From a virus: a stretch of 48,300 bases of DNA. The translations under genes were made by a program, and so were the position numbers. Shown here in pieces: positions 29,094 through 47,337 of this stretch (positions within the stretch are counted from its first letter, which is position 1; the number at the start of each line of letters is the position of its first letter). The notes below the pieces were generated by a model. It worked only from the letters and a program-made list of their open reading frames with translations. It made no database searches and was not told the DNA's origin. The DNA lies in the IMG/VR virus record IMGVR_UViG_3300020185_002501, positions 1-48,300 of that record; one strand, written 5' to 3'.

Positions 29094-29862
29094 GGCCGAC
29101 AAAGGGTACCTAATTGTAGCCGGAACTGCCGCTTCTGCTGATTATATTACATGTGCAGAAACACTAGTAAAAAGTCTTAAATATTGGCACCCAGATGCAA
29201 AAGTTTGTTTAGTTACTGATCAAGAGAACTATCAAAATTCTTTGTTTGACTTTATCAAGACTTTTCCGCATGGTAATACAGGTGGGTGGACCACTGATTG
29301 GCAAGTGTATTATGCAAGCCCGTTTCACGAAACTATAAAGCTTGAAGCTGATATGGTTGTTAGCGGACCAATTGATCATTGGTGGCCATTGTTTCGAAAT
29401 AAACCAGTTTGGATAAGCACAGGAGCACGTAACTTCCATGGTGTCACTGCAACCTCTCGCACTTATCGAAAAATATTTGATCATAATAGTTTGCCCGATG
29501 TATATAATGCAATTACCTACTGGAGGGTAAGTGCTGATGCAGAACGATTCTTTCACAATGTGAAACAATATTTTTCTAACTGGGATATAATTAAACGCAG
29601 CATCAAACTAGGCAACGATGAAAAGGCTAGCACAGATTTAATTTATGCATTAAATGGCAGTGACTTTATTACACCGGGCGTTGGGCCTCAAATTGTACAC
29701 ATGAAACCAGATATCCTTGGTACTAGTGCAGATGATTGGACTTTCGAACTAGTTTGGGAAGTAGTCAACGGGGTAATTCGCATCAATGGACATAATCAAA
29801 CTGGATTTGTGCATTATCATCAAAAAAAACTAGCACATGAATTAGGACAGTTCTATGAATGA
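29083..29862 (+). CDS. Second glycosyltransferase-like protein
   Basis: A 259-residue protein with a similar plan to its upstream neighbour: GYLIVAGTAASADYITCAET, VKSLKYWHPDAKVCLVTDQE (first strands and helix) and TIKLEADMVVSG, whose E88-A-D90 replaces the usual DxD. Then a long segment with NDEKASTDLIYALNGSDF, where GT8-like proteins have the acceptor region. I chose ATG 29083 because TGGAG at 29071-29075 lies 8 bases before it; the frame extends 11 codons further upstream into the previous gene without a better site. It overlaps the previous gene by 11 bases, suggesting translational coupling and joint function. Weakened metal motif, so activity is less certain. Confidence 0.5.
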   Translation: MQYEADKGYLIVAGTAASADYITCAETLVKSLKYWHPDAKVCLVTDQENYQNSLFDFIKTFPHGNTGGWTTDWQVYYASPFHETIKLEADMVVSGPIDHWWPLFRNKPVWISTGARNFHGVTATSRTYRKIFDHNSLPDVYNAITYWRVSADAERFFHNVKQYFSNWDIIKRSIKLGNDEKASTDLIYALNGSDFITPGVGPQIVHMKPDILGTSADDWTFELVWEVVNGVIRINGHNQTGFVHYHQKKLAHELGQFYE

Positions 29863-30199
29863 AGATGCGCTACTGCAACTAATTAACCAAATGATGCCAG
29901 AAAATAAACCAGTTGACTTAGAGTACAGATTGTATTATAATAAAGAAACCAATGAACCGTTGTTCTATTCTATGGAGCAACTCGATGGTGATTATATTGT
30001 TGTAACACACGAGCAGTATAGTGTATCTCGTTATGATTTAATTATTCGTAATGGAGTCATTGTACATCTAATTGATGCGGTTAGTTGGACAAAACTGGTG
30101 CCATCGGAATCGGGCACAAGTTGTAGAGCAGACAATATAATGATAGTTGATTCAGATGGTAATAATAAGTGGACTACTAAAACATATTATTTAAAGTAA
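29855..30199 (+). CDS. Hypothetical phage protein
   Basis: A 114-residue protein with no domain I can name. It has a helical start (DALLQLINQMMPENKPVDLE), a beta-rich middle containing YNKETNEPLFYSMEQLDGDY, then IRNGVIVHLIDAVSW, and an acidic-then-basic C-terminus. The start overlaps the preceding gene and has AGGA at 29844-29847. No signal peptide. Conserved-looking patterns hint at a virion or host-modulating protein, but this is a guess. Confidence 0.4.
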   Translation: MNEDALLQLINQMMPENKPVDLEYRLYYNKETNEPLFYSMEQLDGDYIVVTHEQYSVSRYDLIIRNGVIVHLIDAVSWTKLVPSESGTSCRADNIMIVDSDGNNKWTTKTYYLK

Positions 30200-30577: not shown

Positions 30578-31504
30578 ATGGATTCAATTGATATTGCCGA
30601 TTTGGACTGTATCTATCTTTCTTACGATGAACCACAAAAAGAAGAGTTTTGGGTTAAGATACGCAACATGGTTCCGTGGGCAAAACGTGTTGATGGGGTA
30701 GAAGGCAGCGATGCTGCACACAAAGCCGCAGCACAAGCAAGCGATACTGAACGTTTTATATTAATTGATGGTGACAATCTTCCCGAGGAGTCTTTTTTCA
30801 ATCAAACCATTGAATACAAGGACAGTAGCTACGAAAAGGCAGTTTATCGCTGGAGAGCACGTAATCATGTTAATGGTTTGATGTATGGTAACGGCGGCAT
30901 GAGTTCCTGGACAAAAGAGTTTGTTATGAACATGCGCACACATGAAGCAAGTGAAGGCGCTGATGATACTGATGTAGAGTTTTGTTTTGATCCGCTGTAC
31001 TGGCCGATGTACAATTGCTATTCGACTACACATCCAAATGGAAGTGCTAAACATGCCTGGCGTGCTGGCTTTCGTGAAGGTGTAAAGATGTGCCTCGACA
31101 GAGGACGCAAACCAACTGTTGGCGAGTTTAAAGAACGAGTACACAGTCGCAACCTTGATCACTTAACCATCTGGCAAAATGTCGGCAGTGATGCAGATTA
31201 CGGTCTGTGGGCAATTGCCGGTGCGAGACTCGGAACATACAAAACTATGTTAACAGATTGGGATCACAAAGAAGTACAATGGTTTGACAATTTAGAACAA
31301 ATTTGGAACGATATACCAAACACTGATCCAGTCAACATTGTTAATGATCATGCCAGTGCACTAACCAGACAGTTAGATCTACCAATGAATGTACTTAACT
31401 CAGATCAAAGTAAATTTTTTAAACATCACTATCGTAGTAACTGGAATAATAAAAGTATCATGACACGAGAGATTGATGTTATTCGCAGTCAGGAAGGCTG
31501 GTAG
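30578..31504 (+). CDS. Glycosyltransferase-like protein (DGDN motif)
   Basis: A 308-residue protein. N-terminal region: LDCIYLSYDEPQKEEFWVKI, then a block ending FILIDGDNLPEESFF with D64-G-D66-N, placed as the nucleotide-sugar-binding motif of GT-A enzymes. The middle contains WRARNHVNGLMYGNGGMSSW, a stretch I recall from glycosyltransferase-like proteins of T4-like marine phages. C-terminus is helical. GGAG at 30569-30572 lies 5 bases before ATG. The following radical-SAM gene begins 2 bases after this stop, so the glycosyltransferase-like group runs straight into the radical-SAM block. Enzyme class probable, donor and acceptor unknown. Confidence 0.5.
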   Translation: MDSIDIADLDCIYLSYDEPQKEEFWVKIRNMVPWAKRVDGVEGSDAAHKAAAQASDTERFILIDGDNLPEESFFNQTIEYKDSSYEKAVYRWRARNHVNGLMYGNGGMSSWTKEFVMNMRTHEASEGADDTDVEFCFDPLYWPMYNCYSTTHPNGSAKHAWRAGFREGVKMCLDRGRKPTVGEFKERVHSRNLDHLTIWQNVGSDADYGLWAIAGARLGTYKTMLTDWDHKEVQWFDNLEQIWNDIPNTDPVNIVNDHASALTRQLDLPMNVLNSDQSKFFKHHYRSNWNNKSIMTREIDVIRSQEGW

Positions 31505-31505
31505 G

Positions 31506-32933
31506 ATGCAAAACAAAGGCGACGAAGTCGATGCAGACTTTAAAAGTAAATTTTTAAGTGATGCAGAAATTGCACAGCAAAAATTAAACACAATAAGTCC
31601 TAGCATGTGCCTTGCTAAGTGGAAGCAACTCAGCTTACACCTTACTACTGGAATGAACAACAGTTGTTATCATCCGCCATTGCACAGAGCAGATGCAGAA
31701 GCTATTAAGAAAAATCCCAGTGCGTTACACAATACAGACTACAAGAAGCAGCAACGTAAACTGATGCTCGAGGGTGTGCGCCCGAGCGAGTGTGACTATT
31801 GTTGGAAGATGGAAGACAACGGAAAGCTAAGTGACAGGCATTATCGTAGTGGTGAACCATGGGCAATCAAAGACTTTGAAAAAATAACAAATGCAAATTG
31901 GGACGAAGACATTACTCCTAGTTATGTAGAAGTAGATTTTAATAGCGCATGCAACCTAAGTTGTAGTTATTGCTCGCCGCAGTATAGTTCAACCTGGATG
32001 GCTGAAACAGAAAAGCATGGCGCTTGGCCAACAAGTACGCCACACAACGATCCTGCACATTTTGTAGGAGAACGCAGACCTATACTTGCAAGAGACCACA
32101 ACCCATATGTTGATGCATTTTGGGAATGGTGGCCTACGTTGTATCCGGATCTGGAGCACTTCCGAATGACAGGCGGCGAGCCGCTAATGGATAAAAACAC
32201 ATACAAGGTATTTGACCATGTATTAGCCAATCCTAAGCCAGACTTACATCTAAGTACAACATCAAATTTTAGCGTAGATGAGAAACTATGGCAGAAGTAC
32301 AAAGGATATGTATCAACTATATGCAGCGACCACGGCAACGTGGAACACTTTATGCAGTATGTAAGCTTGGACGGAATGTTTGAACAAGTAGAATATGTAC
32401 GTCACGGTCTTGACTTTGACTTACTATGGGACAGAGTACATCAGTTCTTGCGTGATATTCCAGAGCGCAACAGTATTACATTTATTGTAACAATGAGCAA
32501 CTTGAGTGTAACAACTTTACAAAAATTGTTTGCTGCTATACTTGAACTACGGAAAACATACAGCACAACATATCAGCGAGTGTGGTTTGATACACCTGTG
32601 CTGCGTACACCTTCTTGGCAAAGTCTGCAAATCTTGCCTGAAAGTTATGTGTACGAACTTGATATGACCAAAGCCTGGATGCTGGAAAATCTTGAAACTG
32701 AAGCTACTCGCTTCCACGGATTTAAAGACTACGAGATTAATCGTTTAGATAGGGACATTGCCTGGATGAGAGATGGGCAAAGGCTATCTCCAGAGTACCT
32801 TAATCGTAACAAATCAGACTTTTACAAGTTCTTTACTGAGCACGATCGCAGGCGCGGAACTAACTTTTTACAGACATTTCCTGAAATGACCGACTGGTGG
32901 GAACAGTGTAAGTATCAAAGTACTCAGGCATAA
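31506..32933 (+). CDS. Radical-SAM protein with N-terminal twitch-like Cys site, type I (1)
   Basis: A 475-residue radical-SAM protein. The core site is C149-x3-C153-x2-C156 (CNLSCSYC), which would hold the [4Fe-4S] cluster that cleaves S-adenosylmethionine; M221-TGGEP is the SAM-binding GGE motif. The N-terminal 100 residues carry a second cysteine set, C35, C54, C96 and C99 (CLAKW, SCYHP, CDYCW), matching the layout called N-terminal twitch in radical-SAM families. Its first 99 residues align without gaps with the gene at 35005, which supports ATG 31506 as start; AGGAAGG at 31491-31497 is 8 bases upstream. The C-terminus ends with a D-x-R-R and FPE motif shared with its paralogs. Substrate unknown. 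Confidence 0.8.
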   Translation: MQNKGDEVDADFKSKFLSDAEIAQQKLNTISPSMCLAKWKQLSLHLTTGMNNSCYHPPLHRADAEAIKKNPSALHNTDYKKQQRKLMLEGVRPSECDYCWKMEDNGKLSDRHYRSGEPWAIKDFEKITNANWDEDITPSYVEVDFNSACNLSCSYCSPQYSSTWMAETEKHGAWPTSTPHNDPAHFVGERRPILARDHNPYVDAFWEWWPTLYPDLEHFRMTGGEPLMDKNTYKVFDHVLANPKPDLHLSTTSNFSVDEKLWQKYKGYVSTICSDHGNVEHFMQYVSLDGMFEQVEYVRHGLDFDLLWDRVHQFLRDIPERNSITFIVTMSNLSVTTLQKLFAAILELRKTYSTTYQRVWFDTPVLRTPSWQSLQILPESYVYELDMTKAWMLENLETEATRFHGFKDYEINRLDRDIAWMRDGQRLSPEYLNRNKSDFYKFFTEHDRRRGTNFLQTFPEMTDWWEQCKYQSTQA

Positions 32934-32943
32934 GAGTATGCTG

Positions 32944-32952
32944 CATAAATAC
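32944..32952 (+). promoter_or_regulatory. Late-promoter-like motif (CATAAATAC) before B12-type radical-SAM gene
   Basis: CATAAATAC sits 29 bases before the ATG in the 48-base gap after the first radical-SAM gene, with AGGAA between. This suggests the B12-type gene is read late with the structural genes. Confidence 0.45.
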
Positions 32953-32981
32953 ATACAATGCATAAGTTAGGAACAAGTTAA

Positions 32982-34469
32982 ATGGATATATTAATCATAA
33001 ATGTTCCTAGCGTCAGCTTGGTTTATCCAGCTGCGGCTCCTAGCCTATTAAAAGGTGTATGCGAACAAGCTGGGTTTACTGCATCTGTTGCTGACTTCAA
33101 TCTACAATTATTCGATGCACTAGATGGCACAACTCAAACTAGTGTTAGTAATTATTTTACTGTTCGCAGTAGTATTGGCAACGAAGATCAAAAAATCATC
33201 AATGACTGGTACGATAGTTGTGTAAATCAAATTTTAGAAATCAACCCTAAGTTCTTAGGTATAAGTGTTTTTACATTTGAATGCCAACGAGCTACCGAAG
33301 AGCTTGCGCAACGATTAAAAGGACTGTACACTGGAAAAATTATTATTGGTGGTGCAGGGTTAAGTACAAACGGTATTGCTAGTGAGAAGAATGATTTTGG
33401 TACACGGTTAGTAGAAGAAAAACTAGTTGATTTCTTTATACGCGGCGAAGGCGAGCATGCATTAGTTGAGATTCTGCGAAAAAATAGTAGTACAGTTAGT
33501 GGACTTAATAACGACGACTATGTACAAATTACCAATTTAGACGACATTGCATTTCCTAACTACGATGATGTAATTGATCTTCCATACCGTTACACTAGCA
33601 ATGTTGAAAAGCAATTGCCGATTACATCTAGTAGAGGCTGTGTGCGTAGTTGTACATTCTGTGACATACATGCATTTTGGAAAAAGTATACTTTCCGTAG
33701 CGGTGCAAATGTGGCTGAGGAAATGATTCATCAGTATAACAAATACGGTGTAACAAACTTTTTCTTCACTGATAGTCTAATCAATGGCAGTATTAAAAGT
33801 TTTAGAGAGTTATACAAAACTCTTAATCAATATTATGCTGACAACAACTTAGGTGATAAGTTTTTTACATGGGGCGGGCAGTACATTGTACGAACACCCA
33901 CTCAGCTAAATGCAGATGACTTTGCTGGCGCTGCTCGCAGTGGTATGAATGGGTTAGCAATGGGTATCGAAAGTTTAAGTGAAAACGTTCGAGACCATAT
34001 GAAAAAGGGTTTCTCAAATGCTGATCTTGATTTTACATTAGAACAAATACGTTTAAACGGTATGAATTGTTATTTCTTGATCATTATAGGTTATCCGACT
34101 GAGACAGTCGAAGACTTTCAAGAAACACTAGAATCATTTACTAAGTATCAAGGATATGCAATTGACGGTACTATATTTGGAGTAAACCTTGGCGGTACTT
34201 TAAGCATCGACGAAGGAACTCCGTTGCATCTTAATAGTGTTGACCTCGGACTTGACTTTACAAGCGACAGTGGCGCAGGCACTTTATTTGGACTCGACTG
34301 GGTTGATCAACAAAATAAAGACTTGACGTTACTAGAACGTTGTCGCAGACGTGTGTCGACTCAAGAATTATTAATGAACTTAGGGTACACTGTATGGAAT
34401 GGAGACCATCAGTTAACCAGATTAATGAGAAGTTATGATCGAATTACACGAAATTCCTATCACAGTTAA
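32982..34469 (+). CDS. B12-binding-type radical-SAM protein
   Basis: A 495-residue protein with a B12-binding-like N-terminal domain (first 140 residues, DILIINVPSVSLVYPAAAPS to KIIIGGAGLSTN) and a radical-SAM core with C220-x3-C224-x2-C227 (CVRSCTFC). The C-terminal third continues the barrel (FTWGGQYIVRTPTQLN, GMNGLAMGIESLSENVRDHM). Members of this class often methylate or rearrange unactivated carbons. The N-terminal domain lacks an obvious DxHxxG cobalamin-ligand motif, so cobalamin may bind base-off without protein ligand or not at all. It starts after a late-promoter-like motif (32944-32952), with AGGAA at 32969-32973. Its 3' end overlaps the next gene by 35 bases. Confidence 0.75.
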   Translation: MDILIINVPSVSLVYPAAAPSLLKGVCEQAGFTASVADFNLQLFDALDGTTQTSVSNYFTVRSSIGNEDQKIINDWYDSCVNQILEINPKFLGISVFTFECQRATEELAQRLKGLYTGKIIIGGAGLSTNGIASEKNDFGTRLVEEKLVDFFIRGEGEHALVEILRKNSSTVSGLNNDDYVQITNLDDIAFPNYDDVIDLPYRYTSNVEKQLPITSSRGCVRSCTFCDIHAFWKKYTFRSGANVAEEMIHQYNKYGVTNFFFTDSLINGSIKSFRELYKTLNQYYADNNLGDKFFTWGGQYIVRTPTQLNADDFAGAARSGMNGLAMGIESLSENVRDHMKKGFSNADLDFTLEQIRLNGMNCYFLIIIGYPTETVEDFQETLESFTKYQGYAIDGTIFGVNLGGTLSIDEGTPLHLNSVDLGLDFTSDSGAGTLFGLDWVDQQNKDLTLLERCRRRVSTQELLMNLGYTVWNGDHQLTRLMRSYDRITRNSYHS

Positions 34470-34947
34470 AATACATCTTGAACATTCTGACTACAACGAT
34501 ACCAATGGGTGGCCTCTAGTACAGATAGACTGGAACGACACAGTCATTGGTCGTTATGAAGCTAACTGTGATGTGATAGAATTTAAAATAGTACAAGATG
34601 TAACACGCGAAACTAGTGTTCTGCGATTCCACCATTACGGCAAAAATTATATTGCTGAAGATAAGTGGGTAGAAGTAAAGAAAATGTACATTAACAACAT
34701 CGATTTGCAGCATGTTACCTGGGACAGTGTGCAGCATGCATTTATTCCTCCGTGGGATAACGAAAGCAGTGGTGTGCTTCACAGCAATTTATATCTCGGA
34801 CACAATGGGTATGTTGAATGGCAATTTAAGAATCCTCTGTTACTTGATATACAAAAGAGACTGGGCAAGCACGTTGAACAGATTCACGGACAAGAAACAA
34901 CTAGAGAAGTTCTAGAAAAGGTTAAAGAATATTTTTGGAACCAGTAG
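34435..34947 (+). CDS. Hypothetical protein, possibly beta-sandwich
   Basis: A 170-residue protein of unknown function. It is beta-rich with many Trp, Tyr, His and Asp residues (ITVKIHLEHSDYNDTNGWPL, VLRFHHYGKNYIAEDKWVEV, VEWQFKNPLLLDI), a composition common in carbohydrate-binding or jelly-roll folds, but I see no diagnostic motif. It overlaps the B12-type radical-SAM gene by 35 bases, an unusually long overlap, yet no later ATG with a ribosome-binding site fits. A sigma70-like promoter starts just before its stop codon and serves the next gene. Confidence 0.4.
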   Translation: MIELHEIPITVKIHLEHSDYNDTNGWPLVQIDWNDTVIGRYEANCDVIEFKIVQDVTRETSVLRFHHYGKNYIAEDKWVEVKKMYINNIDLQHVTWDSVQHAFIPPWDNESSGVLHSNLYLGHNGYVEWQFKNPLLLDIQKRLGKHVEQIHGQETTREVLEKVKEYFWNQ

Positions 34948-34973
34948 ACAAACAAACATACATACTATATAAT
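34945..34973 (+). promoter_or_regulatory. Sigma70-like promoter before the long radical-SAM operon
   Basis: TAGACA at 34945-34950 (one change from TTGACA), exactly 17 bases, then TATAAT at 34968-34973. The gene at 35005 follows about 30 bases later with a good ribosome-binding site. TATAAT forms an inverted repeat with ATTATA at 34977-34982. A host-type promoter, unlike the TAAATAC sites elsewhere. Confidence 0.6.
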
Positions 34974-35004
34974 ACTATTATACGCACCCGCAAAAGGACG
35001 CATG

Positions 35005-36381
35005 ATGACCGAAGGTAATCCAGATAACAAGTTAGAAGTACTGCAAAGTAAATTGTTGCCATACGATTTTAAGCAACAACACTTAGATACTCGCAGTGCA
35101 AGCTTCTGCGGAGCAAAATGGTACAACGCCACTATTTGGCTCGGAAGCGGTATGACTACTAGTTGTCACCATCCGTTGCCTCACAAAATTGATGCAGAAA
35201 AACTCAAAGATAATCCAAAACTAATACACAACACACCAGAGAAAAAAGAACAACGAAAGCAAATGCAGTGCGGTGAACGCCCTAGTGGTTGTGAGTATTG
35301 CTGGAAAATCGAAGACATGGGCGAAAAGCACATCAGTGACCGTGTTTATAAAAGCTGGATCTACACTGATGAAGAACTAACCAAAGCAGCTGAAACAGAT
35401 GCCGAGGAAGACTTTGATCTTATCAATCTTGAGATTGCATTTGATCGAACATGCAACTTTGCTTGCAGTTATTGCAACCCTGCCTTTAGTAGTACATGGG
35501 TTAAGGATCTAAAACAAAACGGAGGCTATACTGATCTTAAAAGTGACGGCCGCGGGCACTTTACACACGAACACGACAGTAGTCAATTGTTTAGCTACGG
35601 CGAAGAGAATCCATATGTTGAAGCCTTCTTTAAGTGGTGGGAAACTGATCTACACAAAACATTGCGTCAGTTACGTGTAACTGGAGGCGAGCCACTAATG
35701 AGTGCAGACCTTTGGAAGCTAATTGAATGGTTTGAGAAAAACGGTGATAAGAGTCAAACCAGTCTTGCTATCAATAGTAATCTAGTAGCAAAGCCTGAAC
35801 TAATTCAACGATTGATCAATGTGCGTCAACACTTGCCTAGTCTAGGTGTGTACACTAGTGCAGAAGCAACCGACTCATCAGCTGAATACATTCGCGATGG
35901 TATGATATTTGAGCAATGGTGGGATAATGTGCAGCGTTTACACGAAGCAGACATTGACACGCACTGCATGATGACTATCAATGCATTATGCTTAGAGACA
36001 CTGCCTGATCTTGTGTTGCGCATTATGGCAAAGCGAGAAGAGTATGATAGCCGCAGATTCTGTGTGATGAGCTTTAATATTTTGCGCTTTCCTAGTTTTC
36101 AAAGTGCGCTAGTTTTACCAGACGAAATAAAGCAACGCCATGTTAAAAAACTGCAAGATCTTCGCAACAATAATTCACCGTTGTTCCACGAGTTTGAACT
36201 AGGGCAACTAGACAGGCTTATTGAATACTTGCAAGTTGTAGATACACCACACAGTGAAGGATTTGACATGCCAAATCTGCACAACGATTTTAAAAAGTTT
36301 TATCAACAGTATGACGTCAGGCGTAATAAGAACTTTGAAACAACGTTCCCTGAACTAAAGGAATGGTATAATGAGCTATAA
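35005..36381 (+). CDS. Radical-SAM protein with N-terminal twitch-like Cys site, type I (2)
   Basis: A 458-residue paralog of the gene at 31506. The four N-terminal cysteines (C35, C54, C96, C99) are at exactly the same positions; the radical-SAM triad is C150-x3-C154-x2-C157 (CNFACSYC); VTGGEPLM is the SAM-binding GGE motif. The C-terminus has the D-V-R-R and FPE motifs. AAAAGGA at 34992-34998 is 6 bases before this ATG; the ATG at 35002 would be only 3 bases away, so 35005 is preferred. This is the first gene after the sigma70-like promoter and begins the long chain of coupled genes. It overlaps the next gene by 11 bases. The reaction is unknown. Confidence 0.8.
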   Translation: MTEGNPDNKLEVLQSKLLPYDFKQQHLDTRSASFCGAKWYNATIWLGSGMTTSCHHPLPHKIDAEKLKDNPKLIHNTPEKKEQRKQMQCGERPSGCEYCWKIEDMGEKHISDRVYKSWIYTDEELTKAAETDAEEDFDLINLEIAFDRTCNFACSYCNPAFSSTWVKDLKQNGGYTDLKSDGRGHFTHEHDSSQLFSYGEENPYVEAFFKWWETDLHKTLRQLRVTGGEPLMSADLWKLIEWFEKNGDKSQTSLAINSNLVAKPELIQRLINVRQHLPSLGVYTSAEATDSSAEYIRDGMIFEQWWDNVQRLHEADIDTHCMMTINALCLETLPDLVLRIMAKREEYDSRRFCVMSFNILRFPSFQSALVLPDEIKQRHVKKLQDLRNNNSPLFHEFELGQLDRLIEYLQVVDTPHSEGFDMPNLHNDFKKFYQQYDVRRNKNFETTFPELKEWYNEL

Positions 36382-37657
36382 TTACAACAGTGCTGACCCG
36401 ATTAAAATTAAGCTAGCAGACCTAAGTGATAGGGAACGCGAGTTGCTCAGTGAAAGCAAAACGTTTTGTATGTACCCGTGGATACATATGCATGCTTATC
36501 CCACTGGCGAAGCCTATCCTTGCTGTCACGCCGAAATGGGTGTTGGACAAGTGGGTAACTGTAAAAACAACACAATGGAAGAGATCTGGAACAGTCCAGA
36601 ACAAAAACAATTACGTAAAGACATGTTGTCAGAGCAACCTAATGCTGCCTGCGGACGTTGCTACGAACAAGAGAAAAGCGGATTCTTTAGCGGACGCCAG
36701 AGTGCAAACAAGCACCACGGACATCACATTGGACGTGCACTTGACACACATGATGATGGTCATTACGACGATTTTGAAATGACATACTGGGACATTAGGT
36801 TCTCGAACTTGTGTAACCTAAGTTGTCGTAGTTGCGGCCATATTTTTAGTAGTAGTTGGTACAAAGATCAAAGTGAATTAGCAGGCGGCAACTGGGCTAA
36901 AGAAAACAAGCCAATGAACTACGCAGGTCGATTTGAAACTGACATGATTGAGCAGTTATATGAACACTTGGATCACGTAGAACAGGTATACTTTGCTGGC
37001 GGCGAGCCATGCATGATGGACGAGCATTATCTTATACTTGAAGAATTAGAACGCAGAGGCCGATTCGATGTGCGTCTTATATACAATACAAACTTTACAA
37101 AAACTAAATTAAAAGATCGTTTGGTATTTGATTATTGGAAAAAGTTTGATAGTGTAGCTGTGGGTGCAAGCCTAGATGGTATGGGTACCCACGGTGAATA
37201 TATTCGCACAGGCACTAAGTGGAAAGAAGTAGAACAAAATAGACGTACCATGATGGAAGTATGTCCTAACGTTGACTTTTATATTAGCCCAACATTAAGC
37301 ATTATGAATGCCCTGCACTTACCTGACTTTCACAGAGATTGGGTTGAAAAAGGCTTGATAAAGCCGCAAGACCTTAATGTAAATATTTTGCAGGATCCAG
37401 ATTATTTGCGCATCGATATTGCACCGCAAGCATACAAAGATCAAATTAAAGAAAAGTACGAAGAACACTTAGAATGGCTCCGCCCACTAGATCGTTTAAA
37501 CAGAGCGACAGTAGGATTTGAAAGTGCATTGCAGTATATGGAAAGTACAGATAACACACACCTAATAGACAAGTTTTGGCAGAAGACCAATCGGCTTGAC
37601 GGTATACGTAAAGAAAACATTTTAGATGTAATACCAGAAATGGCAGCATTGAAATGA
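36371..37657 (+). CDS. Radical-SAM protein with N-terminal twitch-like Cys site, type II (1)
   Basis: A 428-residue radical-SAM protein with core triad C148-x3-C152-x2-C155 (CNLSCRSC) and FAGGEPCMM. Its N-terminal site differs from type I: C33 in TFCMYPW, the pair C51-C52 in YPCCHAE and C94/C97 in ACGRCYEQ, the pattern seen in SPASM/twitch-like auxiliary clusters. AAAGGA at 36357-36362, inside the upstream gene, is 8 bases before ATG. It overlaps both neighbours. A GIRKEN C-terminal motif recurs as GIRKDT in the gene at 42262. Confidence 0.8.
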   Translation: MSYNYNSADPIKIKLADLSDRERELLSESKTFCMYPWIHMHAYPTGEAYPCCHAEMGVGQVGNCKNNTMEEIWNSPEQKQLRKDMLSEQPNAACGRCYEQEKSGFFSGRQSANKHHGHHIGRALDTHDDGHYDDFEMTYWDIRFSNLCNLSCRSCGHIFSSSWYKDQSELAGGNWAKENKPMNYAGRFETDMIEQLYEHLDHVEQVYFAGGEPCMMDEHYLILEELERRGRFDVRLIYNTNFTKTKLKDRLVFDYWKKFDSVAVGASLDGMGTHGEYIRTGTKWKEVEQNRRTMMEVCPNVDFYISPTLSIMNALHLPDFHRDWVEKGLIKPQDLNVNILQDPDYLRIDIAPQAYKDQIKEKYEEHLEWLRPLDRLNRATVGFESALQYMESTDNTHLIDKFWQKTNRLDGIRKENILDVIPEMAALK

Positions 37658-39033
37658 GCACTTGGGCAGAATTTTATGATGACATTAAAGATCCATCCTG
37701 GCCTAAATGTGAATCAGAATCTGACTTTGTTAACCTTCCTCAATACATAAAAGATGAATGCATTAATATATACGGATATAATACCGAGCAGTTTAAAAAC
37801 AAAAGTAAACTTAAAAACAAACCATTTCCTATTAAAACTGCAACAGCATGTCAGCTTAAATGGAATTGGAGTACAGTATTCTTAACAACTGGCGAAACTG
37901 CTAGTTGCCATAGAACTAACCATCATAAGTTTGACACCGACGAGTTTGATTTTCACAACACACCGAGTAAGCTTGACGACCGCAACGAAATGTTAAAAGG
38001 CAACTGGCCCAAGGGAGGCTGTGATTACTGCCGGCACATCGAAGGTGCCGGCGGGCAAAGCGATAGAATTACCAACGCAGACTTTCCTGGGATACATGCG
38101 CCAGTTGAATTAGAAGATAATCCTCTAGCAACACAAGTAACGCCAAGGATACTCGAGATATACTTTGATAACACTTGCAACCTCAAGTGTTTGTATTGCG
38201 GTCCGCATTTTAGTAGTTTGTGGGATGCTGAAAATGTTAAACATGGTGAACCTAAATTTATTAAAGATCCTAATTTAAAATCAAATAAAGAAAAGTTATT
38301 TGATTGGTTAAAAGTTAATGGGCACAACTTAACTAACTTTAACATACTAGGGGGCGAACCACTATACCAACGTGAACTAGAAGAATGTCTAGATTTATTT
38401 GAAAAGCACCCTGCCCCTCACCTTAAATTACAAATCATTACTAACTTAAATGCTAAACTAAGTTACTTACAAACAGTTGTATCTAGAGTAAAGACTCTAA
38501 TAGATAATGGTTGTTTGCGTGAATTCGAAGTTACTGCAAGCCTAGACTGCTGGGGACCGCAACAAGAGTATGTGCGCTTTCCTTTAGATTTAAAATCATG
38601 GGAACAAAATTTTGAATACCTAGTAAGCCAAAAATGGATTAATCTTATTATTAGTTCAACAGTTACTCCATTATCTGTGAAAACATTACCAGACTTGCTG
38701 CTTAAAATACAAGAATGGAACAAGTTACGCCCTGTTTATCATTATCAAAATAGTGTAAACCATCCGCCAAACATGCAAATTGATATATTTGGAGATATCT
38801 TTAGCGACGACTTTAGAAGAATACTAGAACTAAAGCCGGAAACAACTCCAGAAGAAGTATCAAGTAAAAAGTACATAGCTGGTATTGCAGCACAAAGTAA
38901 AAGCCGCGATCAAGACGTAGAAAAGATAACAAGCTTGTTTCACTTCCTCAACAAAATGGATCAAAGACGTAAAACCGCCTGGCGTGAGTTATTTCCTTGG
39001 TTAATTGCCGAATTTAGAAAGCATAATTTATGA
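37654..39033 (+). CDS. Radical-SAM protein with N-terminal twitch-like Cys site, type I (3)
   Basis: A 459-residue protein, type I like 31506 and 35005 but more diverged. Cysteines C66, C85, C123 and C126 keep the type I spacing of the first pair (19 residues). The HNT motif, then C-[DE]-Y-C, are conserved. The radical-SAM triad is C175-x3-C179-x2-C182 (CNLKCLYC); LGGEPLYQ carries the GGE motif. The C-terminus keeps D-x-R-R and FP. The N-terminal extension of about 30 residues relative to the paralogs is unexplained. ATGA overlap with the previous gene and no good ribosome-binding site point to translational coupling. Confidence 0.8.
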   Translation: MSTWAEFYDDIKDPSWPKCESESDFVNLPQYIKDECINIYGYNTEQFKNKSKLKNKPFPIKTATACQLKWNWSTVFLTTGETASCHRTNHHKFDTDEFDFHNTPSKLDDRNEMLKGNWPKGGCDYCRHIEGAGGQSDRITNADFPGIHAPVELEDNPLATQVTPRILEIYFDNTCNLKCLYCGPHFSSLWDAENVKHGEPKFIKDPNLKSNKEKLFDWLKVNGHNLTNFNILGGEPLYQRELEECLDLFEKHPAPHLKLQIITNLNAKLSYLQTVVSRVKTLIDNGCLREFEVTASLDCWGPQQEYVRFPLDLKSWEQNFEYLVSQKWINLIISSTVTPLSVKTLPDLLLKIQEWNKLRPVYHYQNSVNHPPNMQIDIFGDIFSDDFRRILELKPETTPEEVSSKKYIAGIAAQSKSRDQDVEKITSLFHFLNKMDQRRKTAWRELFPWLIAEFRKHNL

Positions 39034-40232
39034 AACTACCACATGACACATTCTGTGTGCTACCTTGGGTAAGCATTGAAACATCTCCTATTGGCACTGC
39101 TCGTCCTTGCTGCTTGGCTGAAGATGAAATTAAAGATGCAGACGGTAATAAGTTTGATCTTAATAAGAACACATTAAACGAGATACACTACAGTGAATAT
39201 ATGGATAACTTGCGTCAAGACTTCTTGGATGCTAAAAAGCCGCAAACGTGTAGGAAGTGCTGGAACGAAGAACGCAGTGGACGTACTAGTAAACGCATGC
39301 ACACACTAAATCGACTCAAGCATATTGTCACAGACACAGAATGGAGCAAAGATGCTAAACCTCTTGTGTTTATTGATTTTAAGCTGGGCAATATTTGTAA
39401 TCTTAAATGTCGAATTTGCGGAAGCTGGAGCAGTAGCCAATTTGCCATTGAAGAAATTAAGTTTGAAGGCAAGGACAGTTTCCATTACGAAATGTTACAA
39501 AAAGGCGCCTGGCCCAGGAAGAATATAGAATTTTGGGAAACAGTTGACCCAATGATGGATCAAATTCGTTATTTGGAGTTCACCGGCGGCGAGCCATTTA
39601 TGATACAAGAGCACTTTGATCTGTTGCAGCGGTGTGTGGACGCAGGCATTGCTGGCAATATTGAAATACATTACAATACCAATGGTACACATTATCCAGA
39701 ACATGCTGAAGACATATGGAAACACTTCAAGCTAGTAGAAATTGCATTTAGTATTGATGATGTTGACGAGCGCTTTGAATACCAACGTGCAAATGCTGAC
39801 TGGCAAGTGGTTAATCACCACATGGATCGATTTGAACAGTTGCGTGATAAACTAGGCAACATACAGTTACAGATTTGCGCAACTGTTAATGTGTTTAATG
39901 TAATGTATCTCGAGGGACTTGCTAATTGGATTGATACTAGAAGTTTTGAATTTATCTACTGGAACATGTTACACGAAGCATATTACCATAGTGTAGGAAC
40001 ATTACCAGATACAGCCAAACAAATAGCAATACAGCGTTTGCAAGATGCCGATGTAACACCATATCATAGAGCAGAATTTGACAAGATCATTGATTTCATT
40101 AACAACGGCGTTAGCCTTGATGGCAATATATTACGTATGAAGATCAAAGATGTTGATTGGCGCAGAAACCAAGACTTGAGAACACATCACAGTGAGCTTG
40201 CTCAAGCAATTGGGTATGAGGGCCCAGAATGA
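39030..40232 (+). CDS. Radical-SAM protein with N-terminal twitch-like Cys site, type II (2)
   Basis: A 400-residue radical-SAM protein. N-terminal cysteines: C9 in FCVLPW, C27-C28 in PCCLAED, C74 and C77 in TCRKCW. The core triad is C123-x3-C127-x2-C130 (CNLKCRIC); FTGGEPFM carries the GGE motif and YNTNGTHYP a strand common to the family. It starts in an ATGA overlap with the preceding gene. Its shortest-in-family N-terminus starts directly at the twitch site. It overlaps the start of the nucleosidase gene by 4 bases, so the two should be translated together. Confidence 0.8.
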   Translation: MKLPHDTFCVLPWVSIETSPIGTARPCCLAEDEIKDADGNKFDLNKNTLNEIHYSEYMDNLRQDFLDAKKPQTCRKCWNEERSGRTSKRMHTLNRLKHIVTDTEWSKDAKPLVFIDFKLGNICNLKCRICGSWSSSQFAIEEIKFEGKDSFHYEMLQKGAWPRKNIEFWETVDPMMDQIRYLEFTGGEPFMIQEHFDLLQRCVDAGIAGNIEIHYNTNGTHYPEHAEDIWKHFKLVEIAFSIDDVDERFEYQRANADWQVVNHHMDRFEQLRDKLGNIQLQICATVNVFNVMYLEGLANWIDTRSFEFIYWNMLHEAYYHSVGTLPDTAKQIAIQRLQDADVTPYHRAEFDKIIDFINNGVSLDGNILRMKIKDVDWRRNQDLRTHHSELAQAIGYEGPE

Positions 40233-40801
40233 TACTAGTAATAGTTGCGCTTGAAGAAGAACTACCGGGTACACTTCCATTGGGTTATAAAAAACTAATC
40301 ACCGGTGTTGGAAAGGTTAACGCAACGCTTGCTCTGACTGCTGAACTATGTTATAATAATACTTACAGCAAAATAATTAACTACGGGTCAGCAGGAGGAA
40401 GTGCTGCACTCAAAGGTCAACTTGTTGGTGTGAGTGCGGTCATTGAACGTGACATGGATTGTACACCACTTGGTCTTCCGTTGTACGTTAGCCCAGGTGA
40501 TGAAGAACAAATGATTATTTGCCAAACTAAACACGATAGTTTGTTTGTGTGCGGAACTGGCGATAGTTTTAGTGTACCGCATATTAACTATCAAATAGTC
40601 GAAATGGAAGCATATGCATTAGCAAAGGTGTGTCAGAAGTTCGATGTACCTTTTGACTGCTATAAATATATTTCTGATAGCGATGCTGACGGGGACGATC
40701 AAGGCGCCGAATGGGCTGCTAACGTACACAAAGGCGCTGAATTGTTTACTACTACCGTGTTGAATAGAATTGTACCGAAACAACTAGAGATGATATTATG
40801 A
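40229..40801 (+). CDS. 5'-methylthioadenosine/SAH nucleosidase-like protein
   Basis: A 190-residue protein of the Pfs/MTAN-like nucleoside phosphorylase family: ITGVGKVNATLALTAE matches the nucleoside-binding loop, NYGSAGG the phosphate/purine pocket, IVEMEAYALAKV carries the ribose-binding glutamate (E127), and ISDSDADGDD has the catalytic aspartate position (D150). About 40 residues shorter than E. coli Pfs, so somewhat trimmed. The family hydrolyses MTA and SAH, and many members also take 5'-deoxyadenosine, the radical-SAM by-product that inhibits these enzymes. GAGGG at 40218-40222 precedes ATG. Its place in a radical-SAM operon makes by-product removal the most likely job; this is inference. 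Confidence 0.75.
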   Translation: MILVIVALEEELPGTLPLGYKKLITGVGKVNATLALTAELCYNNTYSKIINYGSAGGSAALKGQLVGVSAVIERDMDCTPLGLPLYVSPGDEEQMIICQTKHDSLFVCGTGDSFSVPHINYQIVEMEAYALAKVCQKFDVPFDCYKYISDSDADGDDQGAEWAANVHKGAELFTTTVLNRIVPKQLEMIL

Positions 40802-41214
40802 AAATAGGAATTACATTTAGTGCGTTTGATTTGTTACATGCTGGGCATATTGGCATGTTACGTGAAGCAAGAGCACATTGTGACTATTTGATTGTAGGAT
40901 TGCAAACTGATCCTACAATTGATCGCCCAGACACTAAAAACAAACCAGTGCAAACGCTAGTAGAGCGCTATACGCAACTTAATGCACTTAAATTTGTTGA
41001 CGAAATTGTTCCTTATCAGACTGAGCAAGACGTGATTGATATATTAGAACTATTCCAATTAGATGTACGATTCCTTGGGGAGGAATACAAACACACTGAC
41101 TTTAGCGGTAAAGACGTCTGTCAGAAGCGTGGAATAGTACTACACTTTAACAAACGAGACCATCGTTTTAGTACAAGTGATTTACGCAAAAGGGTAGCCG
41201 ATAGTGCCAGATGA
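40798..41214 (+). CDS. Cytidylyltransferase-like protein (TagD/RfaE family)
   Basis: A 138-residue nucleotidyltransferase: TFSAFDLLHAGHIGML carries the H14-x-G-H17 motif (HxGH), and RFSTSDLRKRV takes the place of the RxxxISTT motif. Size equals that of TagD-type glycerol-3-phosphate cytidylyltransferases. The reaction would be CTP plus an alcohol phosphate to a CDP-activated compound and diphosphate. The substrate cannot be read from sequence; nearby sugar-type genes make a CDP-linked polyol or sugar plausible. ATGA overlap with the preceding gene. Overlaps the next radical-SAM gene by 11 bases. Confidence 0.75.
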   Translation: MKIGITFSAFDLLHAGHIGMLREARAHCDYLIVGLQTDPTIDRPDTKNKPVQTLVERYTQLNALKFVDEIVPYQTEQDVIDILELFQLDVRFLGEEYKHTDFSGKDVCQKRGIVLHFNKRDHRFSTSDLRKRVADSAR

Positions 41215-42262
41215 GATCATACATGTTTCGCAAGAAACACTTGATCGAGAAGCTGCTGAGCTAGAATTGTTTCAGAATTCTAGTTACTGTCCATTGGTAT
41301 TTCACGGGTTATATGCTCGTAGATTTCCTGGCGACACACAAGAAGTTGCACCATGCTGTTTAGCTAAACCGTCACAGCGTTTTAGTGGACACGAAGATCT
41401 AATGTCTAATAGGCATTTAGAAAACATACGCCGTGATGTAAGAAACAATCAAAAACCAGAAGCATGCGAGCATTGCTGGGAGAATGAATCCTACGGAGGT
41501 TACAGCCCAAGAGCACTTGCTATTGATCGTTACAAAGCTAAAAATTTGCCAGCAACTATTGAACAAAGTGAGCTCAACAGCGGCAAGTGCTACAGTGTGG
41601 ACTATAACACATTGCCAATTTGCAATGCTAAGTGTATAATATGTAGTTCAGCATATTCAAGTCTGTGGGCTGCTGAAGAAGGTATCAAAATCATTGCCGG
41701 AGATGAACTCAAGTACGATCACCTGTCAGGCACTAATTTAGATGATGTGCAGTTAATCTATTTCAACGGAGGAGAACCATTATTAACTGGTGAGCACTTG
41801 TCTCTTTTGAAAAAGATTAAAGATTTAAGCACTGTTGATATATCTTATAATACCAATGGCAGTGTGTATCCATCTAAGGAAACACTTGCATTATGGAAAC
41901 AAGCAAAGTCAGTTCGGTTATATTTTAGTATAGACGGAATTGGCAAACGTTTTGAAGAAACCCGCACTCCTCTTAAATGGGCCAAAGTTTCAAAAATTAT
42001 AAAAAAAGTAAATCTATTAGAAGGTATTCCGATTAGTTGTGCATACACAATAGGAGTACACAACGTATTTGATTTAGAAGATACAATCAATTGGTTTGCA
42101 GCCTTGCCGGATTTTGATGTCACTTCAAATTTTTATGTACACACAGTGTATGGTACGCTGTCAATGCAACAAGCAAACCCGCAACAAAAAGTATCGTTTA
42201 AGAACGAATTGTCAAAATTTAAAGATTTTGATTGGTACAACGAGATAGTGAACTCATTCTAA
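41204..42262 (+). CDS. Radical-SAM protein with N-terminal twitch-like Cys site, type II (3)
   Basis: A 352-residue radical-SAM protein, the shortest of the group. It begins at GTG with AAAAGGG at 41187-41193, 10 bases upstream. N-terminal cysteines C29, C51-C52 (APCCLAK), C88 and C91 (ACEHCWENE). The core triad is C140-x3-C144-x2-C147 (CNAKCIIC), with FNGGEPLLT and YNTNGSVYP. The C-terminus lacks the last helices of the other paralogs. The start is inside the cytidylyltransferase gene, and the stop shares a base with the next start (TAATG). Confidence 0.75.
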   Translation: MPDEIIHVSQETLDREAAELELFQNSSYCPLVFHGLYARRFPGDTQEVAPCCLAKPSQRFSGHEDLMSNRHLENIRRDVRNNQKPEACEHCWENESYGGYSPRALAIDRYKAKNLPATIEQSELNSGKCYSVDYNTLPICNAKCIICSSAYSSLWAAEEGIKIIAGDELKYDHLSGTNLDDVQLIYFNGGEPLLTGEHLSLLKKIKDLSTVDISYNTNGSVYPSKETLALWKQAKSVRLYFSIDGIGKRFEETRTPLKWAKVSKIIKKVNLLEGIPISCAYTIGVHNVFDLEDTINWFAALPDFDVTSNFYVHTVYGTLSMQQANPQQKVSFKNELSKFKDFDWYNEIVNSF

Positions 42263-43578
42263 TGAAAAAACCAGACAGCAAGCCAGCTACATTGTGCATG
42301 GCACCTTGGACACACACTTACCTAAGCCCGCAAACTGAAAGACGTTTGTGTTGTGCAAGCCGTGAGTCAGCACAGAATTTTGAACAATACATCGATACGA
42401 ATGAGGGCAGTGGCAAATATCAACCTGCAAGCCTCGACGAGCATTGGAACAACGAACATATGCAAAGTGTTCGTAAACGCATGATGGCCGGAGAAACATT
42501 GCCCGAGTGTGATGTGTGTAACAGTCAGCTATTAAATACAGATGTATACCGTAGTTACTTTGAAAGAATGTTCCAGCACAAGTACGATGACATTTGGGAA
42601 AAAACGGACGATACTGGCACAACTACAATGAAACCCATTAGCTGGGATTATCGTTTTAGTAACTTGTGCAACTTTAAATGTCGCATGTGTGGTGATATGT
42701 TAAGCAGTAGTTGGGAAGCAGAAGCCAAACTCAACAACATGGTTAAATGGGATAATCCTCAAAACAATTGGATGAAGCCCGAAGTTAGAAAAGAAATATC
42801 AAACTACCAAGACACGCAAATTGAACAAGAATTCAATGAAGCAGTCGAAGAACATCGCGTTGAAGAGATTTACTGGGTAGGTGGCGAGCCTCTTATGTAC
42901 GAACAACACTGGCGATATATGAAACGTATTGTTGAGTTAGGCGACGGGCCACGCTTGTACGCAAGGTATAATAGTAATCTCAGCAGAGTTAACTATAAAG
43001 GTGTAAATCTATATCATGATATCTTGGTGCATATACGTGATTGGCAAATGTGTGCAAGTTTGGACGGTACAGGCCAAATCGGCGAGTACATACGTACAGG
43101 TTTAAAATACGATGAATGGGTAGACAATTTTAAACAAGGGTTAGAAATAGCAACTCATCCGCGACAAATGCGTATCGATTTTACGCTTACATTACCTGGA
43201 ATGATGGATGTAGTAAACGTACAAAAGTTGGCAGACGAACTTAATGTAGCTATACTTGCTAAAGTAATATTCACATTTACACCAGACATTATAATGAGTC
43301 CATTGGCGTTGCCACGAAAAATACTAGACGGCCTGGTAGATGAACTAATTACAAACAACACACTCGGTGATGCATTAAAAAGCGTGTTACTACAATTAAA
43401 AAATAGACCCAACATGGAAGAAACGTATCCTAGAGACGAGTACTGGAGAGGCATGCGTAAAGGTAAAAGACGCATACTTGCACTTGAGGGTATTAGAAAA
43501 GATACGTTATGCATGAGAGAAATACTTAGTGCTAACACTGACATCTTAAATTGGTGGGATAGTATAAGCACAGACTAG
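42262..43578 (+). CDS. Radical-SAM protein with N-terminal twitch-like Cys site, type II (4)
   Basis: A 438-residue radical-SAM protein. The core triad is C136-x3-C140-x2-C143 (CNFKCRMC), and VGGEPLMYE is the GGE motif. N-terminal cysteines C12 (LCMAPW), C30-C31 (RLCCASRE), C83 and C86 (ECDVCN). It resembles the gene at 36371, including a RFSNLCN lead-in before the triad and a GIRKDT C-terminal motif. ATG at 42262 overlaps the preceding stop by one base; the frame runs 10 codons further upstream, but no ribosome-binding site supports an earlier start and the twitch motif follows from 42262 as in its paralogs. Substrate unknown. Confidence 0.8.
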   Translation: MKKPDSKPATLCMAPWTHTYLSPQTERRLCCASRESAQNFEQYIDTNEGSGKYQPASLDEHWNNEHMQSVRKRMMAGETLPECDVCNSQLLNTDVYRSYFERMFQHKYDDIWEKTDDTGTTTMKPISWDYRFSNLCNFKCRMCGDMLSSSWEAEAKLNNMVKWDNPQNNWMKPEVRKEISNYQDTQIEQEFNEAVEEHRVEEIYWVGGEPLMYEQHWRYMKRIVELGDGPRLYARYNSNLSRVNYKGVNLYHDILVHIRDWQMCASLDGTGQIGEYIRTGLKYDEWVDNFKQGLEIATHPRQMRIDFTLTLPGMMDVVNVQKLADELNVAILAKVIFTFTPDIIMSPLALPRKILDGLVDELITNNTLGDALKSVLLQLKNRPNMEETYPRDEYWRGMRKGKRRILALEGIRKDTLCMREILSANTDILNWWDSISTD

Positions 43579-44232: not shown

Positions 44233-45061
44233 TAAAGGGCTGTTAACACCAAACAGTTTGGCTATGTTGTCAGACGACAAGTTGGACACTGTTCGACGCA
44301 ATATTATGGATGGTCAATGTGTTTGGAAAAGTCTGCAACGCAAGCCGCATGACGAATTTAAAGAAAATTTTGACTATTATGTAAAAAATAATAAAGGATT
44401 TACACTCAGCCACATTGACCAATTCCCACACAAAGAAATTATTGTTGGGTGTCATCATTATTTAGACGGGTTAATGATTAAGTACGGTAGAGAAAATCTA
44501 CAAGTACTAGAGCACGATTACACTTACTACAAACGTCTGGATCCTGACAGAAACTTCAGCACTGTTGGCAATTTACAACCCAATGGTGCATTAGTAATTG
44601 CAACACCGTTTCCTGGGTATCTAGGTGTACATCCTGAGTTTAACGACATACTCAAAGAAGCAACCGAAAAGAATATTGATATACACCTCGATGGTGCTTG
44701 GCTTAGTTGTAGTACAGGGTTGGATATTGATCTCAGTACATCATGTATTAAGAGCATCGGGATTAGCATGAGCAAAGGTTATCATGCTAGCTGGAATAGA
44801 ATTGGATTGCGTTACACTCGCAGCGAGGATTTGGTTGATCCGATTACAATATACGACAGGAGTCAAATGTGCCCATGGACCACAGCAGCCGCAGGTATAT
44901 TGTTATTAGATAATGTACCAATAGACTATATGTGGGACACTTACGGCGACCGTTATTATCAACTTGTTAAACATTTTGATTTAGAAGTAGGCAACATACT
45001 ATTTTCAGCCTACGGCAAAGATAGAATTATTTACAGCTTAAAGGACTTATTATTAGCATGA
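44225..45061 (+). CDS. PLP-dependent aminotransferase-like protein (fold type I)
   Basis: A 278-residue protein. HLDGAWLSCSTG has the aspartate (D156) that contacts the pyridoxal nitrogen, and ISMSKGYHASWNRIGLRYTR has K184 in the place of the Schiff-base lysine, 28 residues on, the usual spacing in fold type I. It is short for this class (about 350-400 is usual), lacking the C-terminal small domain, so activity is not assured and it may be a reduced relative or partner. Overlap of 8 bases with the oxygenase-like gene and 4 with the next. Confidence 0.5.
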   Translation: MFNKGLLTPNSLAMLSDDKLDTVRRNIMDGQCVWKSLQRKPHDEFKENFDYYVKNNKGFTLSHIDQFPHKEIIVGCHHYLDGLMIKYGRENLQVLEHDYTYYKRLDPDRNFSTVGNLQPNGALVIATPFPGYLGVHPEFNDILKEATEKNIDIHLDGAWLSCSTGLDIDLSTSCIKSIGISMSKGYHASWNRIGLRYTRSEDLVDPITIYDRSQMCPWTTAAAGILLLDNVPIDYMWDTYGDRYYQLVKHFDLEVGNILFSAYGKDRIIYSLKDLLLA

Positions 45062-46119
45062 CTACCATTGATAGAATTGAAATGAAATTGAGAAATACTA
45101 ACACAGGTGAATTATTTCCTGTGTACATTGATGTTTATGATAATGGGTTAAGCCGTAAATGGTTGCAATCATTAAATGGCATACTAGAACAAAACTTACA
45201 CCTTGAAAAGAACTATTGCTTTTTTGGATTTCCAGACGGTGAACGTACTTTGCAATTACTAGTTGATCAAATTAATGCAACAATTAAAGGTATCAATGAC
45301 AGTAGTATCGATTACTACATTGATGATCATTTCACAGTTGACAATGTTGTTGAAATAGAATCAACAATAAACTTTGGAGAAAGCATGGGCATTAACCATG
45401 ACAAGTTTAATCAGCTACACTTGTACTTTGAAGAAACACAAGGCGAAAGCGGTAACATGAGCAAGCATTATTTGGCAGCAGACACCGAAACCCGTTGGTA
45501 CATTCGTCAATTAAACTTGTTGTGTCATGAAGCAGAAGCTCTTATTTTAAGTCTGCGCAAAAAAGAACATGCACCAGACTGGGTACGCCCTAGTAACGTT
45601 ATGTGTTTTTTAAACGCTCCTAGATTTATATTAGACGAAGATGATTACGAACACTTCGGCATTGATACAATCGCACGTGATCACGGCGGTGTGTATGTTG
45701 GTGTTAACAAGGCAGTGGGTAAACACCATTGGGAGGTTTTCCAGGATGAGGGTGCTGACAGTCGCGTCGACGAACTTACTACTACCTCACTAAAGCCGCA
45801 AACTGAAGCCGCAGGAGACTTTGATATCGAATGGGGCAAAGAAACACTAACACAAGGGTTTATGCAACAGCGTTTAGGAAACTTCCGTCAATGGCTAATA
45901 GACAACAACTTTGATCCCAACGATAAAAGTTTAACAATTGGGCACCCTAAAGTAGCACAAGTAGACTTAATGGCAAGTTTTTCTACTACTGACTTTCATG
46001 ACATACTAAGTAAGTTAACAACAAGCTTAGATGTGTATAGCATACGTACATCAGACGCTTACGCTGAGTATGATTATACTTGGCGAGAAAGTAAAAAATT
46101 ACAGGTGCCGTTATTATGA
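45058..46119 (+). CDS. Conserved hypothetical protein of the radical-SAM operon
   Basis: A 353-residue protein with no recognised domain. Residues 1-70 (IEMKLRNTNTGELFPVYIDV and the following strand-helix) look like a ubiquitin-like beta-grasp fold by pattern only. The middle has many acidic residues and an ADTETRWYIRQLNLLCHEAE helix, then PSNVMCFLNAPRFIL and GIDTIARDHGGVYVGVNKAV. No transmembrane segment, metal site or nucleotide motif is clear. AAAGGA at 45040-45045 is a little far from the ATG, and an ATGA overlap suggests coupling to the upstream gene. It lies between the aminotransferase-like gene and metK, so a role in the same pathway is likely. Confidence 0.5.
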   Translation: MTTIDRIEMKLRNTNTGELFPVYIDVYDNGLSRKWLQSLNGILEQNLHLEKNYCFFGFPDGERTLQLLVDQINATIKGINDSSIDYYIDDHFTVDNVVEIESTINFGESMGINHDKFNQLHLYFEETQGESGNMSKHYLAADTETRWYIRQLNLLCHEAEALILSLRKKEHAPDWVRPSNVMCFLNAPRFILDEDDYEHFGIDTIARDHGGVYVGVNKAVGKHHWEVFQDEGADSRVDELTTTSLKPQTEAAGDFDIEWGKETLTQGFMQQRLGNFRQWLIDNNFDPNDKSLTIGHPKVAQVDLMASFSTTDFHDILSKLTTSLDVYSIRTSDAYAEYDYTWRESKKLQVPLL

Positions 46120-47332: not shown

Positions 47333-47337
47333 ACACA

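Follow-up and report, generated by a model that had tools for sequence, protein, structure and literature searches.

A collinear five-enzyme radical-SAM core beside the tail-fibre genes of T4-like jumbo phages and its possible role in glycan tailoring

Metabolic genes carried by viruses are usually single enzymes that top up the pathways of the host. Why would a phage carry eight radical S-adenosylmethionine (radical-SAM) proteins side by side? We address this question in a stretch of 48,300 bases (hereafter the window), which is the whole of the IMG/VR virus record IMGVR_UViG_3300020185_002501. An earlier note on this DNA had placed the eight genes at positions 31506-43578, which agrees with the first start and the last stop of the block (R1 to R8, Table 1). 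By orthology and gene order, R1, R3, R4, R6 and R8 are a collinear core in related phages, and R5, R7 and the B12-type enzyme R2 are optional. At somewhat less than an even chance, we tentatively read the block as a virus-encoded set of enzymes that together tailor a glycan, sited in the host-recognition region of a lineage of aquatic T4-like jumbo myoviruses.

The eight CxxxCxxC motifs that had been quoted all lie in frame within complete open reading frames (ORFs), and in a search of the whole record 8/8 proteins match Pfam Radical_SAM (E<=3.8e-5). The motif by itself is not significant, the family match is; 17 more CxxxCxxC matches occur elsewhere in the six frames of the window, some of them spanning stops. 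Seven of the proteins also carry an N-terminal four-cysteine site, as the earlier note had seen: C33, C52, C94 and C97 (R4 numbering) are invariant in the seven-protein alignment, together with the core C148, C152 and C155 and a GGEP motif. These seven score 190-416 bits over most of the NF033640 (N_Twi_rSAM) model, above its curated cut-off of 170 bits, and each has both the four-cysteine site and the CxxxCxxC core that define it. N_Twi_rSAM is an established family whose model states no function, and nothing in 14 control bacteria scored above the cut-off. The block shares both cysteine sites with this family and differs in that five divergent members occur together in a constant order. For SPASM (PF13186, cut-off 21.5 bits), matches of the N-terminal domain are listed for R4 (45.2 bits), R6 (23.7 bits) and R8 (20.7 bits) among the N_Twi proteins. 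Viperin-like enzymes were considered and rejected, as NF038283 gives scores of 18.7-36.5 against a cut-off of 180 bits.

The remaining protein, with the motif CVRSCTFC (R2), is a B12-type radical-SAM protein. Its Radical_SAM match is above the cut-off and its B12-binding match (21.0 bits) is under the 32.1 required; it fits no curated B12 radical-SAM subfamily, the best being TIGR03975 (103.7 of 281.85 bits). All genes of the block run in one direction and are packed, with overlaps of 4 to 35 bases and gaps of up to 54. The R8 start at 42232 is a TTG, and a later ATG is likely the true start.

Relatives were gathered by searches with R4 (51 viral loci) and with the nucleosidase of the block (18). 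Presence was counted over 36 distinct loci, the denominators being loci with enough DNA and R4 being the query. Gene-order maps give a constant backbone, fib25-g27-g28a-GT1-GT2-h29-g30-R1-R3-R4-R6-R8-h45-carbamoyltransferase, with insertions between g30 and R1, R1 and R3, and R6 and R8. Within it, R1 and R3 are each present in 33/33 loci, R6 in 29/31 and R8 in 26/26, next to g30 (31/32), GT2 (26/30), h45 (22/22) and the carbamoyltransferase (20/21). Far fewer loci have the nucleosidase (8/23), the S-adenosylmethionine synthetase MetK (5/21), a nucleotidyltransferase (5/23), R5 (3/28) or R7 (1/23). The core keeps its order and presence even where R4 has fallen to 64% identity.

As R4 had served to collect this first sample, a second one was collected with the fibre gene, without any radical-SAM sequence, and was counted over loci whose fibre gene is full-length and is followed by 6.5 kb or more. 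N_Twi genes were found in 29/30 of them (17/18 after dereplication), the exception being locus L177. Loci with only distantly related fibres had none, apart from two that are truncated and belong to the same lineage. N_Twi members above the cut-off occur in 30 related records, most with 5-14 each, and one 328-kb contig holds 14. An assembly artefact, which the earlier note had named as a possible refutation, is rejected because the block is found again in dozens of contigs, with the five genes in order among the 36 distinct relatives; the radical-SAM block is the rule in this phage lineage.

The cluster ligands are intact in the viral orthologues of R1 (39/39), R3 (42/42), R6 (41/41) and R8 (35/35), and in those of R4 for the core (54/54) and for the N-terminal site in 53/54. 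Where synonymous sites gave values, dN/dS was 0.04-0.11, many comparisons being saturated and giving none; judged by these ratios, the core is under strong purifying selection. The density of the eight genes had been taken to suggest a multi-step pathway, a suggestion that we can uphold for the five-gene core, which is collinear, orthologous and under purifying selection, and not for the whole block, since R2, R5 and R7 are optional.

A quick tree of 102 sequences, with several long branches and with R7 and odd extra copies unsurely placed, separates the orthologue classes, and R3 and R8 each form a single clade with support 100. The seven labels require 7 changes on this tree, the minimum being 6 and shuffled labels needing 62; the set therefore does not come from recent gene amplification. 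R4 is 20-29% identical to the other six N_Twi proteins, and this paralogue identity together with the tree rules out recent tandem duplication. The core classes recur together in the distant phages L068 and L074 and in L079, a contig of Bacteriovoracaceae UBA6144. There, a cluster of eight N_Twi genes (L079:4040-15900), in which each of the five core classes is represented, adjoins rplU (ribosomal protein L21) and obg and is therefore taken as chromosomal. Unlike the phage block, it has no GT1, GT2, g30, h45 or carbamoyltransferase in the stretch. Contigs L071-L074 and L106, filed in metagenome-assembled genomes of Rickettsiales, Betaproteobacteria, Verrucomicrobia, Pelagibacter and Rhodobacteraceae, show phage gene order and look like phage DNA binned with bacteria; because of that gene order, no host was deduced from the bacterial names.

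The window is, from its gene content, a piece of a T4-like jumbo myovirus genome. It has no end repeats and is for that reason probably a fragment of a larger one, and its final gene is cut by the record end. Its first 27 kb encode baseplate proteins, one giant protein and tail fibres, and the radical-SAM block lies downstream of this baseplate-linked giant gene and the tail fibre. By its gp6-like baseplate protein the virus is closest, among isolates, to the jumbo phages Phosso and Atu_ph07 (about 35% identity) and next to further jumbo myoviruses. For the right-hand 18 kb, near-identity searches against isolated phages gave no match. The giant gene (11008-24558) encodes 4516 aa, compared with about 3050-3090 aa in most of the fibre-sampled relatives, where the stretches may cut the gene.

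For the substrate, the order of the steps and the biological role we propose the following. The five distinct N-twitch enzymes R1, R3, R4, R6 and R8 would be the obligatory core. With a [4Fe-4S] cluster and SAM, each would generate a 5'-deoxyadenosyl radical that takes a hydrogen from one substrate, at a position differing from enzyme to enzyme, and the electron would then move on to the predicted N-terminal four-cysteine auxiliary cluster of that enzyme. This substrate would most likely be a sugar or glycan, because a related pair of candidate GT-A (glycosyltransferase-fold) proteins precedes the core, a carbamoyltransferase closes it, relatives have sugar-synthesis genes inserted in it, and the region is one in which pelagimyophages keep glycosyltransferases (PMC7029224). 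Once made, the glycan would be put either on the host surface, closing off the receptor for competing phages, or on the fibre of the phage itself. MetK may provide an optional SAM supply, and the nucleosidase likely removes inhibitory 5'-deoxyadenosine, which is known to inhibit radical-SAM enzymes and to be removed by a nucleosidase (PMC6079011). Only a minority of relatives have them, and both are therefore counted as helpers and not as core.

Structural comparison is consistent with such chemistry. The N-terminal domain alone matches only two PDB entries, both BtrN, weakly (E 0.17) and with each of the four cysteines aligned. The nearest solved relatives of the radical-SAM core include BlsE and viperin. 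BtrN is an aminocyclitol dehydrogenase with a twitch cluster. Its four-cysteine auxiliary site has a spacing matching that of the N_Twi proteins, and it is C-terminal in BtrN and N-terminal in the latter.

Several observations weigh against a glycan pathway. Pfam and PDB gave no glycosyltransferase family for GT1, GT2 or g30, whose reading as such is backed by an aspartate-pair motif and weak fold resemblance only; the fold matches of g30 are not significant, and the BtrN match is weak. The sugar genes do not fix the substrate of the core, because they are optional. Bacterial R4-type genes have no dominant partner in their neighbourhoods, where GT2 families are thin (5/131), and L079 clusters all five classes with no glycosyltransferase or carbamoyltransferase found beside them. 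Finally, radical-SAM enzymes at the same locus of the sister isolates resemble protein or peptide maturases. That five successive virus-encoded radical-SAM reactions on one substrate, shared with a relative of predatory bacteria, would yield a chemically new sugar or glycan at phage-host recognition is a possibility that we hold to be somewhat unlikely.

The sister isolates bear on another explanation, that the enzymes modify the phage's own tail-fibre or another virion protein post-translationally, altering or stabilising its receptor-binding parts. The block stands directly downstream of the fibre genes. At the same place, right after the homologous giant and fibre genes, Atu_ph07 and Phosso each have four radical-SAM genes, of C-terminal SPASM type where the subtype is readable and resembling DynA, PapB, DarE and sulfatase maturases. 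Flanked by these genes is a 296/306-aa protein with the C-terminus (F/Y)CH(S/T)SCHASCH(N/S)SRSRR (tail of the Atu_ph07 protein, CHSSCHASCHNSRSRR). The main text of the Atu_ph07 paper makes no mention of the radical-SAM genes (PMC6102473). In Burkholderia phage FLC6 and Pseudomonas phage DT01, genes for a cupin, a radical-SAM protein and a tailed protein follow one another. Scanning viral contigs for the pattern (L239-L318; motif exactly 16 residues from the stop, ORF of at least 100 aa) found at least 32 with a C-terminal CHxxCHxxCHxxR(G/S/A)RR in proteins of varied length. Among the matches listed, a radical-SAM-like ORF was in the fetched stretch of 29/32 tailed loci versus 1/48 other motif matches of similar length, and 0/32 tailed loci had a strong N_Twi match.

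These findings raised our estimate of virion modification, which we nevertheless consider unlikely. The CHxxCHxxCHxxRxRR tail is absent from all loci carrying the N_Twi core, the fibre-like g27 is without cysteine, and the enzymes of the sister isolates belong to a different family. The carbamoyltransferase and the sugar genes would also be misplaced, unless the modification is itself a glycan. The clusters of Atu_ph07, Phosso, FLC6 and DT01 share with the block a jumbo-phage setting and the grouping of several radical-SAM genes next to virion genes, and differ from it by their SPASM type, cupin and Cys/His-tailed protein, with no R1-R8 orthologues or g30 found. The tailed loci appear to be a separate phage radical-SAM system, predicted to modify a Cys/His protein tail.

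A further reading is that independent auxiliary genes were gathered singly in a hypervariable island, each acting alone and with no common product. R5, R7, the B12 enzyme, the nucleosidase, the nucleotidyltransferase, MetK and many cassettes indeed come and go. Genes spliced into the block in relatives encode NDP-sugar epimerases, APS kinase, flavin reductase, methyltransferase and hexapeptide transferase, and a DAHP_synth_1/CTP_transf_3 pair, reading as KdsA/KdsB, is found between MetK and the carbamoyltransferase in L003 (7319-8802). R3 of the window is 83% identical to that of L027 and 59-62% to those of the other close relatives compared, and g30, R1, R4 and R6 are nearer to L025 and L020. 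Among the genomes compared, it is in the window and L027 that the B12 enzyme and h34 immediately precede R3, and all three genes (32982-36381 in the window), with this distinct R3 allele, appear to have been exchanged as one cassette. In L031 a different B12 enzyme precedes R6, which is the divergent gene there. These two or three cases suggest that an optional B12 step may alter the substrate met by the next N_Twi enzyme. Against independent acquisition, the five core genes, g30, h45 and the carbamoyltransferase keep their presence and order over the full range of R4 identity, and the same classes stand together in L068, L074 and L079, so that we judge it improbable.

Least probable of all is that the product is a small molecule, a modified nucleotide or a modified DNA base for use in infection, for instance in counter-defence: five ordered tailoring enzymes with a carbamoyltransferase are reminiscent of antibiotic and aminocyclitol pathways, optional genes are there to supply SAM and to remove the by-product, and there is distant viperin similarity, but the block sits in the tail-fibre region and not among replication genes, and the viperin model scores fall far below its cut-off.

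Table 1. Genes of the window and Cys/His-tailed proteins of other loci (positions in the window unless a locus is named)
Feature	Position	Strand	Evidence or remark
Baseplate wedge (gp6-like)	7597..11004	+	phrog_10646 E 1e-281; places virus
fib25, tail-fibre protein, opens host-recognition region	25298..26866	+	PHROG tail-fibre matches
GT1, candidate GT-A-type protein, aspartate pair LLVDTDYML	28305..29093	+	invariant D95, D97
GT2, paralogue of GT1	29050..29862	+	hhalign probability 98.7 to GT1
h29, conserved small protein	29855..30199	+	in most related loci
g30, very conserved, invariant DGDN, possibly GT-A-like	30578..31504	+	28-row alignment, mean column identity 75%
R1, N-twitch radical-SAM (core)	31506..32933	+	NF033640 315.6 bits
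R2, B12-type radical-SAM (optional)	32982..34469	+	Radical_SAM 54.8 bits; few relatives
h34, travels with B12 enzyme	34435..34947	+	only beside B12 homologues in L027, L191, L075
R3, N-twitch radical-SAM (core)	35002..36381	+	NF033640 312.6 bits
R4, N-twitch radical-SAM (core)	36371..37657	+	NF033640 415.8 bits
R5, N-twitch radical-SAM (optional)	37654..39033	+	NF033640 231.5 bits
R6, N-twitch radical-SAM (core)	39030..40232	+	NF033640 329.3 bits
MTA/SAH-type nucleosidase (optional)	40229..40801	+	PF01048
Sugar-phosphate-type nucleotidyltransferase (optional)	40798..41214	+	PF01467, TIGR00125 above cut-off
R7, N-twitch radical-SAM (optional)	41204..42262	+	NF033640 190.3 bits
R8, N-twitch radical-SAM (core)	42232..43578	+	NF033640 287.6 bits
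h45, conserved phage protein (core)	45058..46119	+	confident structural model
MetK, S-adenosylmethionine synthetase (optional)	46235..47332	+	three S-AdoMet_synt Pfam domains
O-carbamoyltransferase, N-terminal part, cut by record end (core)	47311..48300	+	PF02543 124.5 bits
Cys/His-tailed protein	L150:21119-22009	-	
Cys/His-tailed protein	L156:25415-26335	-	
Cys/His-tailed protein	L237:6060-6620		
Cys/His-tailed protein	L238:6025-6561		

Homologues of fib25 occupy the same place in Atu_ph07 (E 1e-68) and Phosso (E 1e-76). The nucleosidase belongs to the PF01048 superfamily (44.2 bits, cut-off 25.1) and stays below the curated equivalog cut-offs, the best being PRK05634 (75.7 of 129); the best full model of the nucleotidyltransferase, HldE domain II (TIGR02199), gives 82.6 of 181.5 bits. 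The model of h45 (pLDDT 90) has no significant PDB counterpart, and its relatives in BFVD are ten proteins, from phages only. One of these databased structures, reported for Atu_ph07, has a similar predicted fold; a search of Atu_ph07 with the h45 profile gave no sequence match. The g30 model (pLDDT 78) shows weak PDB resemblances, many to sugar-nucleotide enzymes and none significant. Neither h45 nor g30 was found in isolated phages by tblastn. Positions 44225-45061 read like a pyridoxal-phosphate-dependent aminotransferase (HLDGAW...SMSKGY...RIGLRY), with no Pfam match and in none of the loci searched.

Such a block had seemed unusual for a virus, which is true only in part: N_Twi_rSAM is an established family, radical-SAM-rich phages are published and the block is the rule in its lineage. 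As far as their accessible text goes, a 2017 report gives 12 radical-SAM genes for the T4-like ocean phage TARA_ERS488813_N000010 (PMC5332604), and a 2020 report describes radical-SAM cassettes in the host-recognition island of pelagimyophages, which also keeps glycosyltransferases proposed to alter the host O-chain (PMC7029224). Both concern phages that, like that of the window, are T4-like with many radical-SAM genes, and the pelagimyophage island is likewise fibre-adjacent and accompanied by glycosyltransferases. The same text gives counts or cassettes and describes no ordered core, orthologue classes or pathway. Searches of the open PMC literature with twitch-domain, jumbo-phage and tail-fibre combinations returned no description of a conserved five-enzyme core. 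High radical-SAM counts in marine phages are thus already published, and the conserved, ordered five-enzyme core, as far as we found, is not.

A fixed set of five radical enzymes, accompanied by optional helpers for SAM and by-products, would be among the more elaborate biosynthetic routes carried by viruses, and it would be located where phages decide which cells can be infected. The N_Twi family has many members and no reaction assigned in NF033640; the conserved set, with close relatives in a bacterial chromosome, makes a defined group of these enzymes to test together.

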